NCBI RefSeq assembly: GCF_000012865.1
Contig: NC_007503.1
Coordinates: forward strand, 434,001 to 498,000
Source of the DNA: Carboxydothermus hydrogenoformans Z-2901
GTDB taxonomy: Bacteria; Bacillota; Z-2901; Carboxydothermales; Carboxydothermaceae
Direction: 5' to 3'
Length of the DNA stretch: 64,000 nt
Below, in pieces: positions 11,113 to 53,814 of this stretch. Numbering within the stretch: position 1 is the stretch's first letter; every line of letters starts with the position of its first letter. A model generated the notes under the pieces. It did not search any database. It saw only the letters and a list, made by a program, of their open reading frames with translations, and was not told the origin of the DNA. Position numbers and translations under genes: made by a program.

Positions 11113-11368
11113 AGCAAAACATTTTACAGAAAAAGCAGTGAATGGGAGCGGTGCAAAAGGAAGGCCCCAGAGAGCCGGGGGTAGCTGCGAACCCGGTGCC
11201 GGAGTTTTGCACAGATCGCCCAGGAGCTTTCCGGTCGAAAGGTTAGTAGGCCGGAACGGTTTTTGACCGTTATGCCAATGAAGCGGCCGGGTTACCATGC
11301 CCGGCAAGCAGGGTGGTACCGCGGGCAAAACCCCCGTCCCTGGACGTTCAGGGGCGGGGGTTGTTTTT
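11113..11368 (+). promoter_or_regulatory. T-box leader upstream of ilvE (branched-chain amino acid operon)
   Basis: This leader fills the 430-base gap between tetR and ilvE. The T-box sequence AGGGTGGTACCGCGG (11310-11324) is followed by a terminator with stem CCCCCGTCCCTG / CAGGGGCGGGGG (11331-11360) and a T run. Stem I shows GTGCAAAA pairing with TTTTGCAC, and just 3' of it ATC (11215-11217) sits where the specifier codon is expected, which suggests tRNA-Ile sensing. Uncharged tRNA would pair with the T-box and prevent the terminator, turning on the operon. The specifier assignment is from manual folding. Confidence 0.9.
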
Positions 11369-28441: not shown

Positions 28442-28694
28442 ATTAGAAAAATCCTGTGAACGGGACGAGTAGCAAGGCTCAAGGCCCCAAGCGAGCCGGG
28501 GAGGGTGGAAGCCCGGCGGTCGTGGCTTTGGCGAAAATCCCCCGGGAGGAGGCGACCCAAAGGCGAAAAGCCCAGTAGGTTTGCCCGGCGCCTGTGCCGT
28601 TATTTTAACGAAGTGACCGGATTTTTCCGGTAATTTGGGTGGTACCGCGGTGTAAAGCCGTCCCTTAACCTTTTTGGGTTAAGGGATTTTTTAT
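28430..28694 (+). promoter_or_regulatory. T-box leader of ileS
   Basis: This fills the 309-base gap before ileS. The T-box sequence TGGGTGGTACCGCGG (28636-28650) is followed by a terminator of TCCCTTAACC / GGTTAAGGGA (28661-28686) with a T run. In stem I, CAAGGC pairs with GCTTTG, and ATC (28537-28539) sits at the specifier position in GAAAATCCC. This is consistent with tRNA-Ile control of isoleucyl-tRNA synthetase. Confidence 0.92.
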
Positions 28695-47903: not shown

Positions 47904-49262
47904 ATGTATTTTAGTAAGTATAACTTAATTTTACCCTTTGCAGATAATTACTTACTTTTAAATCCTCTTTCCGGAGCGGTGGATTTGCTGGAAGAAAGCG
48001 ATTACCAACTTTTAGAGGAGCTAAGAAAAAGCTCCTCTAAAAATTTTGACCGGCAATTTATCGCTTACCTCCGGGAAAGAGGTTATATATATGAAGATGA
48101 AGGGGAAGAAGAGGAGAAATTAACCGAAACCTTTAAAGAATTCTTGGAGATAAACAATACCTCCCCTACCCAGATTTTTTTTGTACCAACTTACAACTGT
48201 AATTTAGCGTGCAGTTACTGTTTTCAGCAGGGGATTAAAGATAAAAAAGATTTACCAACAAAAGAGGTTTTGGATGCCTTTTTTAATTACGTAAATCAAA
48301 ATTTTAAAAACGAGCCGGAAAAGCCGTTTTTAACTTTATTTGGCGGTGAACCGTTAATTGCTTCGGAATACCAAAAAGAAGTTATAGCTTACTTTCTCTA
48401 TCAGGCGAAGATTAACGGGTATGAAGTTTCAATAGTTACCAACGGTTATGCCCTTAAGGAGTACATGCCAATTTTAACAAAGGGCGTAATTAAAGAAGTG
48501 CAAATTACCGTTGACGGACCACCGGAAATTCACGACCAGCGGCGGGTTACCAAAGGCGGCGGTAAAACCTTTGACAGGATTTTTGAAGGGCTGCTTCTTT
48601 TAAAAGAAGCGGGCATTCCTATCAACCTGCGGGCAGTGGTGGATAAAAGCAATCTTATAACCCTGGTTGAACTGGCTAAACTTCTTGACGAGAACGGATT
48701 TTTGGATTTACCCAAAAGCAAGTTTAAAACCCAGATAGGGAGAAATTACGAGCTGTTTGAATGCCAGGACCAGAGTCAAAATCTGTATGACCGCTTAGCT
48801 CTCTGGGCAGAATATGCCAAGCTCTCTAAACAATATCCGATTTTACAAAAATTCCACCTTCCAGAATTTAAAGGAGTAAAGTACCTGGTGGATAACGGGG
48901 AGATGCCTTTTCCCACTTATGATAACTGCCCGGCATTTAAAAAAGAATGGGCTTTTGATTATCAGGGAAAAATTTATGGCTGCACCGCCAATGTAGGCCG
49001 GGAGGAGTTCATGGTAGGAACTTTTTATCCGGAAGTTCGCCTTGATGAAGAAAAAATCAAACCCTGGCAAAAGCGGTCAATTTTGACTATCCCAAAATGC
49101 CGGGAATGCGAAGTGGCCCTTTTGTGTGGTGGCGGTTGCGGTACCGTTGCTTACAACCGGGAAAAAACCGTTTTAGCACCGGACTGCCGGCCAATTCGCG
49201 AGCTCTGGGAAATCGGAGTAAATTACTACAGCAAAGAAATTAAAGCCTTAGGAGAGAACTAA
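47904..49262 (+). CDS. Radical SAM/SPASM peptide-maturase-like protein
   Basis: This 452-residue protein begins with a small RRE-like or leader domain (SKYNLILPFADNYLLLNPLSGAVDLLEE), typical of peptide-modifying radical SAM enzymes. The SAM cluster motif CNLACSYC is at Cys99, 103 and 106. The C-terminal SPASM region has CPAF, YGCTANV, then CRECEVALLCGGGC (about 399-412) and a last Cys near 428, enough for auxiliary clusters. The immediately upstream Cys-rich peptide is the likely substrate, so thioether formation is the leading guess. RBS AGAGGAG precedes ATG. Confidence 0.88.
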   Translation: MYFSKYNLILPFADNYLLLNPLSGAVDLLEESDYQLLEELRKSSSKNFDRQFIAYLRERGYIYEDEGEEEEKLTETFKEFLEINNTSPTQIFFVPTYNCNLACSYCFQQGIKDKKDLPTKEVLDAFFNYVNQNFKNEPEKPFLTLFGGEPLIASEYQKEVIAYFLYQAKINGYEVSIVTNGYALKEYMPILTKGVIKEVQITVDGPPEIHDQRRVTKGGGKTFDRIFEGLLLLKEAGIPINLRAVVDKSNLITLVELAKLLDENGFLDLPKSKFKTQIGRNYELFECQDQSQNLYDRLALWAEYAKLSKQYPILQKFHLPEFKGVKYLVDNGEMPFPTYDNCPAFKKEWAFDYQGKIYGCTANVGREEFMVGTFYPEVRLDEEKIKPWQKRSILTIPKCRECEVALLCGGGCGTVAYNREKTVLAPDCRPIRELWEIGVNYYSKEIKALGEN

Positions 49263-49264
49263 AT

Positions 49265-49957
49265 ATGGCGTATACCGAAGGCTGTCTGATTTGCGGTGCC
49301 GAGATTACTTACCAGGAGGAACCGGCGGAGAAAACCTGCACCATTTGCGGGAAAAAAGAATTAAGTCAGGCCCAGTGCAGTCAAGGACATTTTGTTTGCA
49401 GTGACTGCCACCGGGGGGAACATTTAAAGACTATCATAAATTTTTGTCAAAACACTGATTGGCAAAATCCGGTGGATATCTTTGATTATCTTACCCAGGT
49501 GCCGGGTTTTCCCCTGCACGGTCCAGAACACCATGCTTTAACTGCAGCAAGTTTAATTGCCGCTTATCAGAATATTACCGGGCAGAAAAATCCCAGAGCC
49601 ATTCGGGATGCGGTGGTACGGGCTAAACAGTTAGTGGGCGGTAGTTGCGGGCTCTGGGGGGCCTGCAGTTCAGCTCTGGGTGCAGGAATTGCCTTTTCGA
49701 TAATTTTTGGTAATACTCCGTTGTCCCGGGAAAGATGGGGGGATGCTAACCGGGCTACCGGTAAAATCCTGGAAAAAATCGGCGCTATCGGTGGTCCAAG
49801 ATGCTGCAAAAGGACTTCTTATTTAAGCTTAATAAACGGAGCTAAAATCTTAGAACAGCTTACTGGAATAAAATTTCAGCTAACCACACCTAAATGTATG
49901 TTTAGCCGTCGTAATAAAGAGTGCTTAAAAGAAAAATGCCCCTTTTATCCCGGATGA
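49265..49957 (+). CDS. DUF5714 domain protein
   Basis: This 230-residue protein starts with zinc-ribbon-like pairs (CLICGAE, CTICGKK, then CSQGHFVCSDCHRG) and continues with a helical domain marked by GPEHHALTAASLIAAY, GSCGLWGACSSALGAGIAFS and GGPRCCKRTSYLSL, ending in CMFSRRNKECLKEKCPFY. I recognise this as the DUF5714 family of unknown function, often near methyltransferase or radical SAM genes. It has about 18 cysteines. It begins two bases after the radical SAM stop, so close co-expression is likely. Confidence 0.8.
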   Translation: MAYTEGCLICGAEITYQEEPAEKTCTICGKKELSQAQCSQGHFVCSDCHRGEHLKTIINFCQNTDWQNPVDIFDYLTQVPGFPLHGPEHHALTAASLIAAYQNITGQKNPRAIRDAVVRAKQLVGGSCGLWGACSSALGAGIAFSIIFGNTPLSRERWGDANRATGKILEKIGAIGGPRCCKRTSYLSLINGAKILEQLTGIKFQLTTPKCMFSRRNKECLKEKCPFYPG

Positions 49958-50180: not shown

Positions 50181-51461
50181 ATGAGCGACAAAGTTATATA
50201 TTTAAGCCAAGAACAGTTTGACGAAGTGGTATTAAAAAGCGATGTTCCGGTAATTGTGGATTTTTATTCCGAAGATTGTCCACCCTGCGAGGCACTGGCT
50301 CCGGCTTACGAGAAGCTTGCCCAGCAGTACGGGGATAAATTTAAGTTTGTCAAAATCTACCGGCAGCAAAACCGACCTTTAGCCGAAAAGCTGGGAGTTA
50401 AGGGTAGCCCCACAGTTCTGTTTTATGTCAACGGGCAAGAAGTGGGCCAGAGGTTAACCGGCTATATTTCCAAGCGTCAGCTAAGGGAAGCCATGGAAAA
50501 AGCTTTTGGCCAGAAACTTTTGCCGGAAGTTCCGGAAACGGTTAAGTATGATGTTATTGTTCTTGGTGGCGGTCCGGCAGGTTTAAGTGCGGCTCTGTAT
50601 ACCGCCCGGGCCAAGTTAAGAACCATTGTGGTGGATGAAAGTGTTCCCGGTGGCCAGGCGGCTACCACCTACCATATTGCTAACTACCCCGGTACCCCCG
50701 GAACGATTAGAGGTAAGGAACTAACTCAAAATATGCTTAATCAGGCCTTAGCTTTTGGTGCAGAAGTTGATGATTTAAAAGAAGTATTAAAAGTTGAATT
50801 AACCGGAGAGGTTAAGAGGGTTATCACCGAAGATAAGATTTATGAAGCTCCGGCCATCATTTTAGCCACCGGAGCAGAACCAAGAAAACTTCCGGCGGAA
50901 GGGGAAGACCTTTTCCGGGGCCGCGGCGTCCACTACTGTGCTACCTGTGATGGGGCAATGTACCAGGGCATGAAAGTAGTGGTGGTTGGCGGTGGCAACT
51001 CAGCCGTAGAAGAAGCGGTATTTTTGACCCGTTTTGCCACCGAAGTTACGATTATTCACCAGTTTGACCACTTCCAGGCTTCCAAAGTTGCCCAGGAAGA
51101 AGCTTTTGCCAATCCCAAAATAAAGGTTATCTGGGATTCGGAAGTACGTAAGGTTGTTGGGGATAAACATGTAACCGGCGTTGTGATTGAAAATCTGAAA
51201 ACCAAAGAACTTTCTACCGTGCCTACCGATGGGGTGTTTGTTTACATTGGAACTCAGCCTAAAACCAATTTGTTTGCCGGACAGGTAGAGATGAACGAAT
51301 GGGGTTATATTATTACCGATGAAGAAATGCGGACCAATATACCGGGAGTTTTTGCGGCGGGAGATTTAAGGCAGAAGTCAGTACGGCAGGCGGTAACCGC
51401 TGCGGCCGATGGGGTAATTGCGGCAGTAAATGTGGAGAGATATCTTGCCAGTAAAAAGTAA
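50181..51461 (+). CDS. Thioredoxin-thioredoxin reductase fusion
   Basis: This 426-residue protein has an N-terminal thioredoxin domain (about 1-110) with active site SEDCPPCEALAP, then a full flavoprotein reductase (from about 125: VIVLGGGPAGLSAAL for FAD, CATCDGA for the redox disulfide, VVVGGGNSAVEEA for the nucleotide, and FAAGDLRQ). The order Trx-TrxR is the reverse of the more usual TrxR-Trx fusion. It may pass electrons from NAD(P)H or ferredoxin to thiol proteins of this locus. GGGGGAGAGG precedes the ATG. Confidence 0.92.
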   Translation: MSDKVIYLSQEQFDEVVLKSDVPVIVDFYSEDCPPCEALAPAYEKLAQQYGDKFKFVKIYRQQNRPLAEKLGVKGSPTVLFYVNGQEVGQRLTGYISKRQLREAMEKAFGQKLLPEVPETVKYDVIVLGGGPAGLSAALYTARAKLRTIVVDESVPGGQAATTYHIANYPGTPGTIRGKELTQNMLNQALAFGAEVDDLKEVLKVELTGEVKRVITEDKIYEAPAIILATGAEPRKLPAEGEDLFRGRGVHYCATCDGAMYQGMKVVVVGGGNSAVEEAVFLTRFATEVTIIHQFDHFQASKVAQEEAFANPKIKVIWDSEVRKVVGDKHVTGVVIENLKTKELSTVPTDGVFVYIGTQPKTNLFAGQVEMNEWGYIITDEEMRTNIPGVFAAGDLRQKSVRQAVTAAADGVIAAVNVERYLASKK

Positions 51462-51598: not shown

Positions 51599-51886
51599 AT
51601 GAATATAACTTTTACCGAAGAAGCTAAAAAATATTTGGAAGGAAAAAATGATACCATTAGAATTGAATTTATGGCTTACGGAGGTGGGTGATGCCCGGTA
51701 CAGCAATTGCCCACCGTGTTTGTGGGAAAACCGCAGGATGAACGATTTTTTAATCTTTATGAAGTAGAAGGAATTAAGGTCTATGTGCCGAAAAATACAA
51801 TAGCGGTTAAAGATCCGGTTAAAATCTACCTTGAAGGCAAGTGGATGTTTCAGCGCTTAGAGGTTGATGGTCTTGATCTTGCTTAA
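51599..51886 (+). CDS. HesB-like selenoprotein (in-frame UGA as selenocysteine)
   Basis: A 95-residue reading frame with one UGA at codon 31 (51689-51691), in the context YGGG-U-CPVQQLPTVFVGKP. Both halves fit one HesB/IscA-like protein: the N-terminus MNITFTEEAKKYL is typical, and the UGA stands beside Cys32 in the conserved cysteine region. HesB-like selenoproteins are an established family. An 18-base hairpin begins 18 bases after the UGA. AGGGAG precedes the ATG by eight bases. A nonsense mutation is the alternative, but the frame remains intact after the UGA. Confidence 0.82.
51689..51730 (+). promoter_or_regulatory. Candidate bacterial SECIS of the HesB-like gene
   Basis: Starting 18 bases after the UGA, CCCAC (51710-51714) pairs with GTGGG (51722-51726) around the seven-base loop CGTGTTT, with possible extension by TT/AA. 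Position and size fit a bacterial SECIS for SelB. Confidence 0.65.
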
Positions 51887-51908: not shown

Positions 51909-52370
51909 TTGCCTTTAAAAAAGATTTTCCTCTTCACAGCGGTAATTTTAGTGGTGGTTAGTAGTTTTCCAGCCCTGGGAGAAGTGGACCAAGACGTTTT
52001 AAACGATGTAATTCATACTTTTTGGGCTCCGGATTTTTGTGGTATGAACCTGGCCGATTGTCCGGCTTCTTCCGCTGAAGAAATGCGGAATCAAATTAAA
52101 GAAATGTTGGAACAGGGAAAAACCAAACAGGAAATAATAAATTACTACACAAACCTTTACGGTACCAAAATTTTAGCGGAACCTCCCAAAACGGGTGTAT
52201 ATGCGGCAATTTGGGTTATGCCGGCAATTGCGGTAGTTGCCGGCGGTGTATTAGTTTACACCGTGGTCAAGAAACGCCGGAAGGAAGTAAAGGTGGAGGA
52301 GAAGAAAGAGCTAACGGTAGATGACGACCTTAGTTTGGAAGTGGAAAAGGAGTTGAAGAAATATTTATAA
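51909..52370 (+). CDS. CcmH/NrfF-like membrane protein with altered cysteine motif
   Basis: This 153-residue protein has a signal-like N-terminus (IFLFTAVILVVVSSFPALG), a CcmH-like domain (about 25-95: EEMRNQIKEMLEQGKTKQEIINYYTNLYGTKILAEPP), a TM helix (about 100-120) and a charged tail. The family reduces apocytochrome c cysteines with an LRCxxC motif, but here it is FCGMNLADC, Cys44 and Cys51 six residues apart. It may have changed partner. No other ccm genes are visible. It starts at TTG with GGGGGG upstream, 22 bases after the HesB-like gene. Confidence 0.75.
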   Translation: MPLKKIFLFTAVILVVVSSFPALGEVDQDVLNDVIHTFWAPDFCGMNLADCPASSAEEMRNQIKEMLEQGKTKQEIINYYTNLYGTKILAEPPKTGVYAAIWVMPAIAVVAGGVLVYTVVKKRRKEVKVEEKKELTVDDDLSLEVEKELKKYL

Positions 52371-52395: not shown

Positions 52396-53121
52396 GTGGC
52401 TTTAAAGATTGGCTCGCTGGAAATTCGCTGGTACGGAGTTTTGATGGCGATAAGTGTATTGATTGGTACTTATCTTGCTTTAAAAGAAGCAAAACGGAAA
52501 AATATCCATGAGGACCATATTTACAACTTGGTTTTACTCGGAGCTCCAATAGGGTGGATTGGAGCCCGGATCTGGTACGTTCTCTGGAACTGGGATTATT
52601 ACAGCAAGTATCCGGCCGAGATTCCGGCTATCTGGCATGGCGGGCTTGCCTTTCACGGTGGTATTTTAGCGGCAATCCTAGTGGGGATTGTTTACGCCCG
52701 GATGAAAAAGCAGTCTTTTTGGCAACTGGCGGATCTTTTTGCTCCCAGCATAATTTTAGGGCAGGCAATTGGCCGCTGGGGAAATTATTTTAACCAGGAA
52801 GCTTATGGCTACCCTACCGATCTTCCCTGGGCTATGTATATTGACGGTGCCTGGCGCCATCCCACCTTTTTATACGAATCCCTCTGGGATCTGGGGGTGT
52901 TTGTTTACCTCTGGCAAACCCGTAAAAAACAAAGGTATAGTGGCGAAATCTTTTTAAAATATCTTCTCTGGTATTCGGTAGGAAGGTTTATTGTAGAAGG
53001 TTTTCGGGTGGATAGCTTTTGGGTTGGCCCCTTTCGTTTAGAACAGCTTTTAAGTGTGGGGTTAATCGTATTTAGCCTTATTATGATGAGGGTGTTGGGG
53101 AGAAATGAGGGAGAGAATTAG
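52396..53121 (+). CDS. lgt: Prolipoprotein diacylglyceryl transferase
   Basis: This 241-residue protein has seven TM helices and the Lgt signatures IGSLEIRWYGVLMA at the start, HGGLAFHGGILAA and GRWGNYFNQEAYG, with the C-terminal GEIFLKYLLWYSVGRFIVEGFR. It attaches diacylglyceryl to lipobox cysteines. The GTG at 52396 lacks a good Shine-Dalgarno; family alignment would fit a start a few codons further upstream (ISP...), where no standard start is visible. Lipoproteins at 3331 and 53431 would be substrates. The end overlaps the MerT-like gene. Confidence 0.92.
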   Translation: MALKIGSLEIRWYGVLMAISVLIGTYLALKEAKRKNIHEDHIYNLVLLGAPIGWIGARIWYVLWNWDYYSKYPAEIPAIWHGGLAFHGGILAAILVGIVYARMKKQSFWQLADLFAPSIILGQAIGRWGNYFNQEAYGYPTDLPWAMYIDGAWRHPTFLYESLWDLGVFVYLWQTRKKQRYSGEIFLKYLLWYSVGRFIVEGFRVDSFWVGPFRLEQLLSVGLIVFSLIMMRVLGRNEGEN

Positions 53122-53419
53122 CAGTATTCTTTCGGTTATTACTGCGGTTTTAGGGTGCATTACCTGAGTGGGACCGGTAATATTAGCCTCCTTGGGTCTG
53201 GGAGGAGCGTCTTTTTCGTTTTTTGCGCCACTGGCCCCTTACCGGAGTTTCTTTTTAGTACTTACCTTTGTTTTTTTAGGTTACGCCTTTTATGAAACTT
53301 ATTTTAAAGGCAAAAGTTCGAAGTTAAACAAAATCGTCCTCTGGTCGGCAACCGTTTTGGTTGTGATAGTTTTAACTTATACTTATCGCTATACCTTACT
53401 AAGCTTATTTTCTTTTTAA
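53105..53419 (+). CDS. MerT-like membrane selenoprotein (in-frame UGA)
   Basis: A 104-residue frame with UGA at codon 21 (53165-53167): LGCIT-U-VGPVILASLGLGGASFSF...APLAPYRSFF. The MerT mercuric transporter has a Cys-Cys-x-GP motif in its first helix followed by LxSLGLGGAW and LEPYRP; here U21 takes the second Cys position and Cys18 is nearby, making CxxU. Three TM helices follow. A hairpin begins 19 bases after the UGA. It starts inside lgt (ATG 53105). Reading only from the GTG after UGA would remove the first helix, so recoding is favoured. Confidence 0.82.
53165..53208 (+). promoter_or_regulatory. Candidate bacterial SECIS of the MerT-like gene
   Basis: CCTCC (53187-53191) pairs with GGAGG (53201-53205) around TTGGGTCTG, with GC/GC extending the stem past a bulged A. 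The stem begins 19 bases after the UGA, and the loop has the G residues typical of SelB-bound loops. Confidence 0.65.
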
Positions 53420-53430
53420 GGGGAGGGGTT

Positions 53431-53814
53431 TTGTTGCCGCGGAGCAAATATGTATTTTGGGTAATAATAGTTTTGCTATTATTTGCTTTGACGGGGTGCT
53501 TAAAAGCCGGTTATAAGGATTTAGAGCCCGATGAAGCCAAGAAGCTTATTGATGAAAATCCAATGCTTTTAATTATGGATGTCAGAGAACCTTATGAGTA
53601 TGCCGAAGCGCGTATTCCCGGTTCCCATAACATTCCTATGGGAGAGGTGGAACAGCAGTTACCCAACATTGATAAAGAACAGGAAATTTTAGTGGTATGT
53701 GAAACCGGAAGTCGGTCGGCAAGTATTGCCCAGATGCTGGTGAGTAAAGGTTACAAGCATGTTTACAATTTAAAAGGGGGCATTGCTAACTGGCCCTATG
53801 AATTGGAAAAATAA
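53431..53814 (+). CDS. Lipoprotein rhodanese
   Basis: This 127-residue protein has a lipoprotein signal peptide (hydrophobic core to lipobox ALTGC, Cys23) and a rhodanese domain (DVREPYEYAEARIPGSHNIP, active site CETGSRS, then LKGGIANWPYEL). It would handle sulfane sulfur or a related thiol on the outer face of the membrane. It starts at TTG with GGGGAGGGG upstream, 11 bases after the MerT-like gene, so the two are probably expressed together. Lgt, encoded just before, would lipidate it. Confidence 0.9.
   Translation: MLPRSKYVFWVIIVLLLFALTGCLKAGYKDLEPDEAKKLIDENPMLLIMDVREPYEYAEARIPGSHNIPMGEVEQQLPNIDKEQEILVVCETGSRSASIAQMLVSKGYKHVYNLKGGIANWPYELEK

Follow-up and report, generated by a model that had tools for sequence, protein, structure and literature searches.

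A MerT-like gene of Carboxydothermus hydrogenoformans Z-2901 carries an in-frame UGA codon where MerT proteins have the second cysteine of their Cys-Cys pair, raising the questions of whether this codon is read as selenocysteine (Sec) and what a relative of the mercury importers would carry outside a mercury resistance operon. The gene lies in the window, the stretch of 64,000 nucleotides analysed here (NC_007503.1, positions 434,001 to 498,000), and its coordinates and those of the other features are given in Table 1. Here we argue that the gene very probably encodes a selenoprotein, and we tentatively propose that its product and the rhodanese encoded next to it form a relay for sulfane sulfur or selenium.

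The core finding, a MerT-like selenoprotein, is already known as an uncharacterised prediction. A 2022 review (PMC9312934) lists a "Putative mercuric transport protein, PF02411, ABB16073.1" among predicted selenoproteins, a 2026 review (PMC13188914) also lists ABB16073.1, with the motif C/SxxU, and both cite a 2007 paper (Zhang and Gladyshev) for the MerT-type selenoprotein. ABB16073.1 is almost certainly the window gene, because accessions of this series belong to C. hydrogenoformans, in whose genome no other MerT-family gene was found; one of them, ABB15282.1, is a selenoprotein of Grx-like (AhpF N-terminal) type, a kind reported for C. hydrogenoformans. The review lists give no partner gene, SECIS covariation or CxxU/CU split for ABB16073.1, and these are what the present analysis adds.

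Results

Table 1. Features of the window, and UGA-bearing plasmid relatives in their own locus coordinates.
Feature	Position	Strand	Remarks
MerT-like gene, predicted selenoprotein	53105..53419	+	104 aa; ATG 53105, TAA 53417-53419
UGA codon, predicted Sec21 of CxxU motif	53165..53167	+	column of second Cys of MerT Cys-Cys
Putative bacterial SECIS hairpin	53187..53205	+	family covariation; apical loop UGGGUCU 53193-53199; 19 nt past UGA
Lipoprotein rhodanese	53431..53814	+	PF00581 85.4 bits; lipobox LTGC; catalytic loop CETGSR
Presumed lgt-like prolipoprotein diacylglyceryl transferase	52396..53121	+	ORF; neighbour cluster 8
CcmH/NrfF-like thiol protein	51909..52370	+	PF03918 79.1 bits; neighbour cluster 9
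Second selenoprotein gene	51599-51886	+	TGA 51689-51691; GGGUCP motif
Trx/TrxR (thioredoxin/thioredoxin-reductase) fusion	50181-51461		same gene run as MerT-like gene
DUF5714 protein	49265-49957	+	210.8 bits
Radical SAM/SPASM maturase-like gene	47904-49262		adjoins DUF5714 gene
T-box leaders	11129-11344; 28447-28668	+	
UGA-bearing plasmid MerT	L144 3001-3300; L145 2995-3294; L146 3001-3303		merR-merF-merT-merA operons, Bacilli

The frame contains a single UGA, at codon 21, and its translation is open elsewhere. The protein begins MRERISSILSVITAVLGCITUVGPVILASLGLGGASFSFFAPLAPYRSFF and holds across that codon the segments CITUVGP, GLGGASFSF and APYRSFF, the first and last of which a reading made from the letters alone (hereafter the sequence-only reading) had picked out as MerT-like around a Cys-Cys-x-GP motif. 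With UGA read as a residue, the Pfam MerT model PF02411 matches the protein at 36.2 bits (E=7e-9), above the curated cutoff of 32.9 bits, which places it in the MerT family by profile score. In the alignment with MerT, Sec21 falls on the column of the second Cys; the TM1 Cys-Cys pair itself is missing, its columns being held by Thr-Sec with a Cys three residues ahead of the Sec (CxxU). Cys18 and Sec21 are the only Cys or Sec residues of the protein, and the second Cys pair that long MerT proteins have between TM2 and TM3 is absent from it and from all 29 Sec homologs. Three transmembrane helices are predicted, and an AF2 model of low confidence (pLDDT 65) puts helices at residues 3-29, 46-68 and 73-102. 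Foldseek against the PDB returned no fold match for this model, and a sequence profile matched MerF alone in the PDB (E=0.17).

Whether the UGA is decoded or is a true stop, leaving a pseudogene or two separate genes, was judged from relatives. Wherever checked, the UGA occupies one single column. TGA stood there in 12 of 12 homologs, from 10 genomes, when 61 genomes of relatives were searched; over 398 genomes of the phylum it was in frame in 31 of the 34 matches to a profile built in this analysis and in 24 of the 26 matches to PF02411, a curated model built by others. The homologs lacking UGA (in G445, G059 and G372, and the third copy in G210) have Cys at the Sec column, and neither a frameshift nor a sense codon other than Cys, which the sequence-only reading had named as signs of a pseudogene, was seen in the relatives examined. 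SelB is present in 25 of 25 genomes with a UGA copy versus 266 of the 398 overall (67%; P=2.8e-5, with kinship ignored), and the host itself has SelB (398.7 bits) and a tRNA-Sec with anticodon UCA.

The sequence-only reading had also pointed to a GC-rich hairpin 19 bases past the UGA. Its position proved exact, but its folding energy is unexceptional (z -0.1, no better than shuffled sequence), and a SECIS call from window folding energy alone was dropped; the convincing part is comparative. The family hairpin, relative to which the Carboxydothermus register is slipped by 1-2 nt, has the stem CCnCTN/N'AGnGG, a five-base loop GGUCU or similar and a constant spacing from the UGA. Stem cells are paired at 87% in homologs compared to 76.5% in shuffled sequences, double-change cells number 22 compared to 6.9, and the family covariation score was attained by none of 500 shuffles. 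Sliding the partner strand by 1-3 columns lowers the pairing to 37-60%. As the innermost pair (CG 10, AU 6, GC 4, UA 3, GU 1) joins synonymous codon positions on both sides, the protein sequence does not explain the pairing. In Cys homologs stem pairing drops to a mean of 3.3 of 6, as against 5.2.

The locus thus shows what marks a bacterial selenoprotein gene, namely a UGA at a conserved Cys column, a SECIS hairpin 3' of it and host Sec machinery. Homology, a conserved UGA, SECIS-like hairpins that covary and co-occurrence with SelB leave very little doubt that the window gene is a genuine selenoprotein gene, in which Sec would be inserted at the UGA by SelB, tRNA-Sec and the downstream hairpin. 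Sec would then stand in for the second Cys and the first helix would carry a CxxU site, as the sequence-only reading had it. A true stop could be argued from the window hairpin, by itself no better than shuffles, and from the UGA copies that Enterococcus faecalis carries on plasmids, since this species reportedly has no Sec system. We consider it highly improbable, given a UGA at one column over many genera with frames intact on both sides, a covarying hairpin and SelB in every host, and the pseudogene reading was rejected on these grounds.

The Sec-encoding genes divide into two subtypes: in CU genes (15 loci) the Cys partner immediately precedes Sec, and in CxxU genes (14 loci including the window) it stands three residues ahead. 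In all 14 CxxU loci the next gene encodes a rhodanese, 315-360 nt from the MerT-like start, and the same holds for two more CxxU loci found later, kin to L073 and L076; a class-level extension of the search added just these two CxxU genes, similar to loci already in the set. A rhodanese therefore lies directly downstream of 16 of 16 CxxU genes, compared to 0 of 15 CU and 0 of 7 CC genes; two CU loci have a rhodanese more than 4 kb upstream. The partner rhodaneses are anchored, mostly as lipoproteins by their lipobox, and keep the catalytic Cys. The one in the window starts 11 nt past the stop of the MerT-like gene, and its lipobox and PF00581 match agree with the lipoprotein rhodanese that the sequence-only reading had placed there.

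The neighbours of CU genes encode ArsR regulators or zf_CopZ proteins, or are unrelated, and an ortholog of CU type that has Cys-Cys retains the ArsR and CopZ-like neighbours. Five genomes (G006, G052, G081, G090 and G124, the first two being close kin) carry both subtypes, each with different neighbours. A tree built without the motif columns did not recover a single CxxU clade; it needs three changes and is of low resolution. As CxxU and rhodanese change together three times only on this weakly resolved tree, their association is strong in count and thin in independent events. The CxxU/CU split and the CxxU-rhodanese pairing are new as far as our literature search reached: no description of the rule was found in the literature searched, with a mention possible in the genome paper of 2005, in that of 2007 on selenoproteins or in the Haft papers of 2023 and 2025. 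Four CxxU loci (L051, L052, L059 and L060) have a two-component regulator pair upstream of the MerT-like gene, directly so in three; downstream, three loci encode an FmdB-like zinc ribbon and a TPR protein.

Upstream of the MerT-like gene, and overlapping its start by 17 nt, is an ORF that we take to be lgt-like from its sequence; an lgt-like gene is directly upstream in L075 too. In 6 of the 14 CxxU loci a CcmH-like gene is no more than 2.5 kb away from the MerT-like gene. These surroundings invite a reading as an electron conduit of the CcdA/DsbD type, in which the Cys18/Sec21 pair would cycle between a selenenylsulfide and its reduced form and supply the extracellular rhodanese and CcmH with electrons from the cytoplasmic thioredoxin system. 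In favour of this, the CxxU motif is of a redox type, the run of genes that includes the MerT-like gene also encodes the Trx/TrxR fusion and CcmH, CcmH is found repeatedly near CxxU genes, and such coupling has been proposed elsewhere, the NCBIfam family TsoB being a rhodanese/DsbD-like fusion selenoprotein. Yet the protein has a single Cys/Sec pair in about 100 residues, CcdA and DsbD have more helices, no CcdA or DsbD sequence match was obtained, and the CcmH linkage is confined to 6 of 14 loci; we regard a conduit as less probable than the relay proposed below, though as a serious rival.

Further genes of the window deserve mention in their own right. The second selenoprotein gene just upstream belongs to the NCBIfam CC/Se motif family NF041239 (87.9 bits; cutoff 40), a family already listed. 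The DUF5714 protein, whose gene adjoins one that is radical SAM/SPASM maturase-like, matches a portion of MbdU, the metal-binding double selenoprotein, at 146.9 bits, below the cutoff. The window also contains two T-box leaders.

Instead of the merR, merP and merA of a mer operon, the neighbours of the window gene are lgt, ccmH and the rhodanese gene. A search of the whole genome gave no MerA above the cutoff, and the surroundings of the MerT-like gene showed no MerR, bearing out the remark of the sequence-only reading that neither was visible. The best MerA match in the genome (361.7 bits, below the cutoff) is dihydrolipoyl-dehydrogenase-like and has no C-terminal Cys pair.

Plasmids of Cytobacillus, Alkalihalophilus and Enterococcus do carry merR-merF-merT-merA operons in which merT is a UGA-bearing close sister of the CU type. 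These sisters have TGT TGA at the Cys/Sec pair where it was read, and the SECIS-like hairpin is intact in L144, the one checked. Given these operons, mercury is a plausible cargo of the CU subtype. On the Enterococcus faecalis plasmids, this amounts to a selenoprotein gene in a host expected to read UGA as stop.

It is accordingly conceivable that the window protein, too, carries a soft metal (Hg(II), Cu(I) or Ag(I)) as MerT does, with Sec raising the metal affinity and the rhodanese protecting or loading the protein. Its membership of the MerT family by Pfam and NCBIfam, the plasmid sisters and the CU genes beside ArsR and zf_CopZ all speak for this. So does the short MerT of a Listeria merR-merT-merP-merA operon, which is likewise devoid of the second Cys pair; we had counted the missing pair against Hg transport and dropped that argument. 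Nevertheless, CxxU genes are accompanied by a rhodanese rather than by merP, merA or metal regulators, the genome has no MerA, and CxxU replaces the vicinal CC or CU pair of the metal-linked genes. We give soft-metal transport about the same standing as the conduit, likewise as a serious rival of the relay.

Discussion

Based on our data we propose, with a probability of roughly 45% for the whole statement including the cargo, that the short (RC607-type) MerT-like selenoprotein and the rhodanese form a relay for sulfane sulfur (or selenium). The lipoprotein rhodanese would be tethered to the membrane from outside, in the place that MerP holds in a mer operon, and its active-site Cys would take up sulfane sulfur, or perhaps selenium, in persulfide form. 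The rhodanese would then pass the sulfane atom to the Cys18/Sec21 pair in TM1 of the MerT-like protein, which may transport the atom or its reducing equivalents through the membrane. The data show the UGA frame, the homology, the signals for Sec decoding and the pairing of the genes; the membrane side, the cargo, the direction and the transfer itself we infer. That the CxxU subtype as a whole is such a two-gene transmembrane relay, a repurposed mercury importer, we put forward slightly more cautiously still.

The relay is favoured because CxxU genes have a rhodanese as constant partner, 6 of the 14 loci have CcmH and mercury genes are missing, and the CxxU motif, the nearby CcmH and the Trx/TrxR fusion point to thiol or sulfur chemistry. 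Against it stand the nearest characterised relatives, which move Hg(II), and the UGA-bearing CU sisters in real mer operons with merA. The sequence-only reading had tentatively favoured soft metal, selenium or sulfur transport over a classic mer operon; the strict rhodanese coupling and the absence of merA fit that suggestion.

The strict CxxU/rhodanese pairing, set against the metal-type neighbours of CU genes, gives the Sec-containing MerT a specific partner and a candidate cargo. Both reviews (PMC9312934, PMC13188914) pose the question of how prokaryotes take up selenium specifically; according to the later one, no transport system of high affinity that is specific for selenium has been identified in them. 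The pair bears on this question and, if the relay holds true, would be a candidate for prokaryotic uptake of selenium or sulfane sulfur.

Among known systems, the best NCBIfam match of the window protein is NF033560, the MerT model for the Bacillus RC607 type (56.3 bits, far below the 130-bit cutoff), a type about 97-100 aa long whose model is matched by all 29 Sec members. The Listeria short MerT of this type likewise has no second Cys pair but has CC and belongs to a mer operon with merP and merA, whereas the window protein has CxxU and stands beside a rhodanese. The long MerT proteins of plasmid mer operons (L142, L143) align with the window protein over TM1-TM3 at 34-41% identity; they have CC and, in the loop that joins TM2 to TM3, a CxxxxxC motif that the window protein lacks. 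In the MerT/CopZ fusion MerT_CopZ_Se (NF045683) the MerT-like part carries Sec, as in the window protein, and several CU genes of our survey lie near zf_CopZ proteins, recalling that fusion. The window protein, in contrast, has no CopZ part and falls outside this family (40.5 bits against a cutoff of 375).
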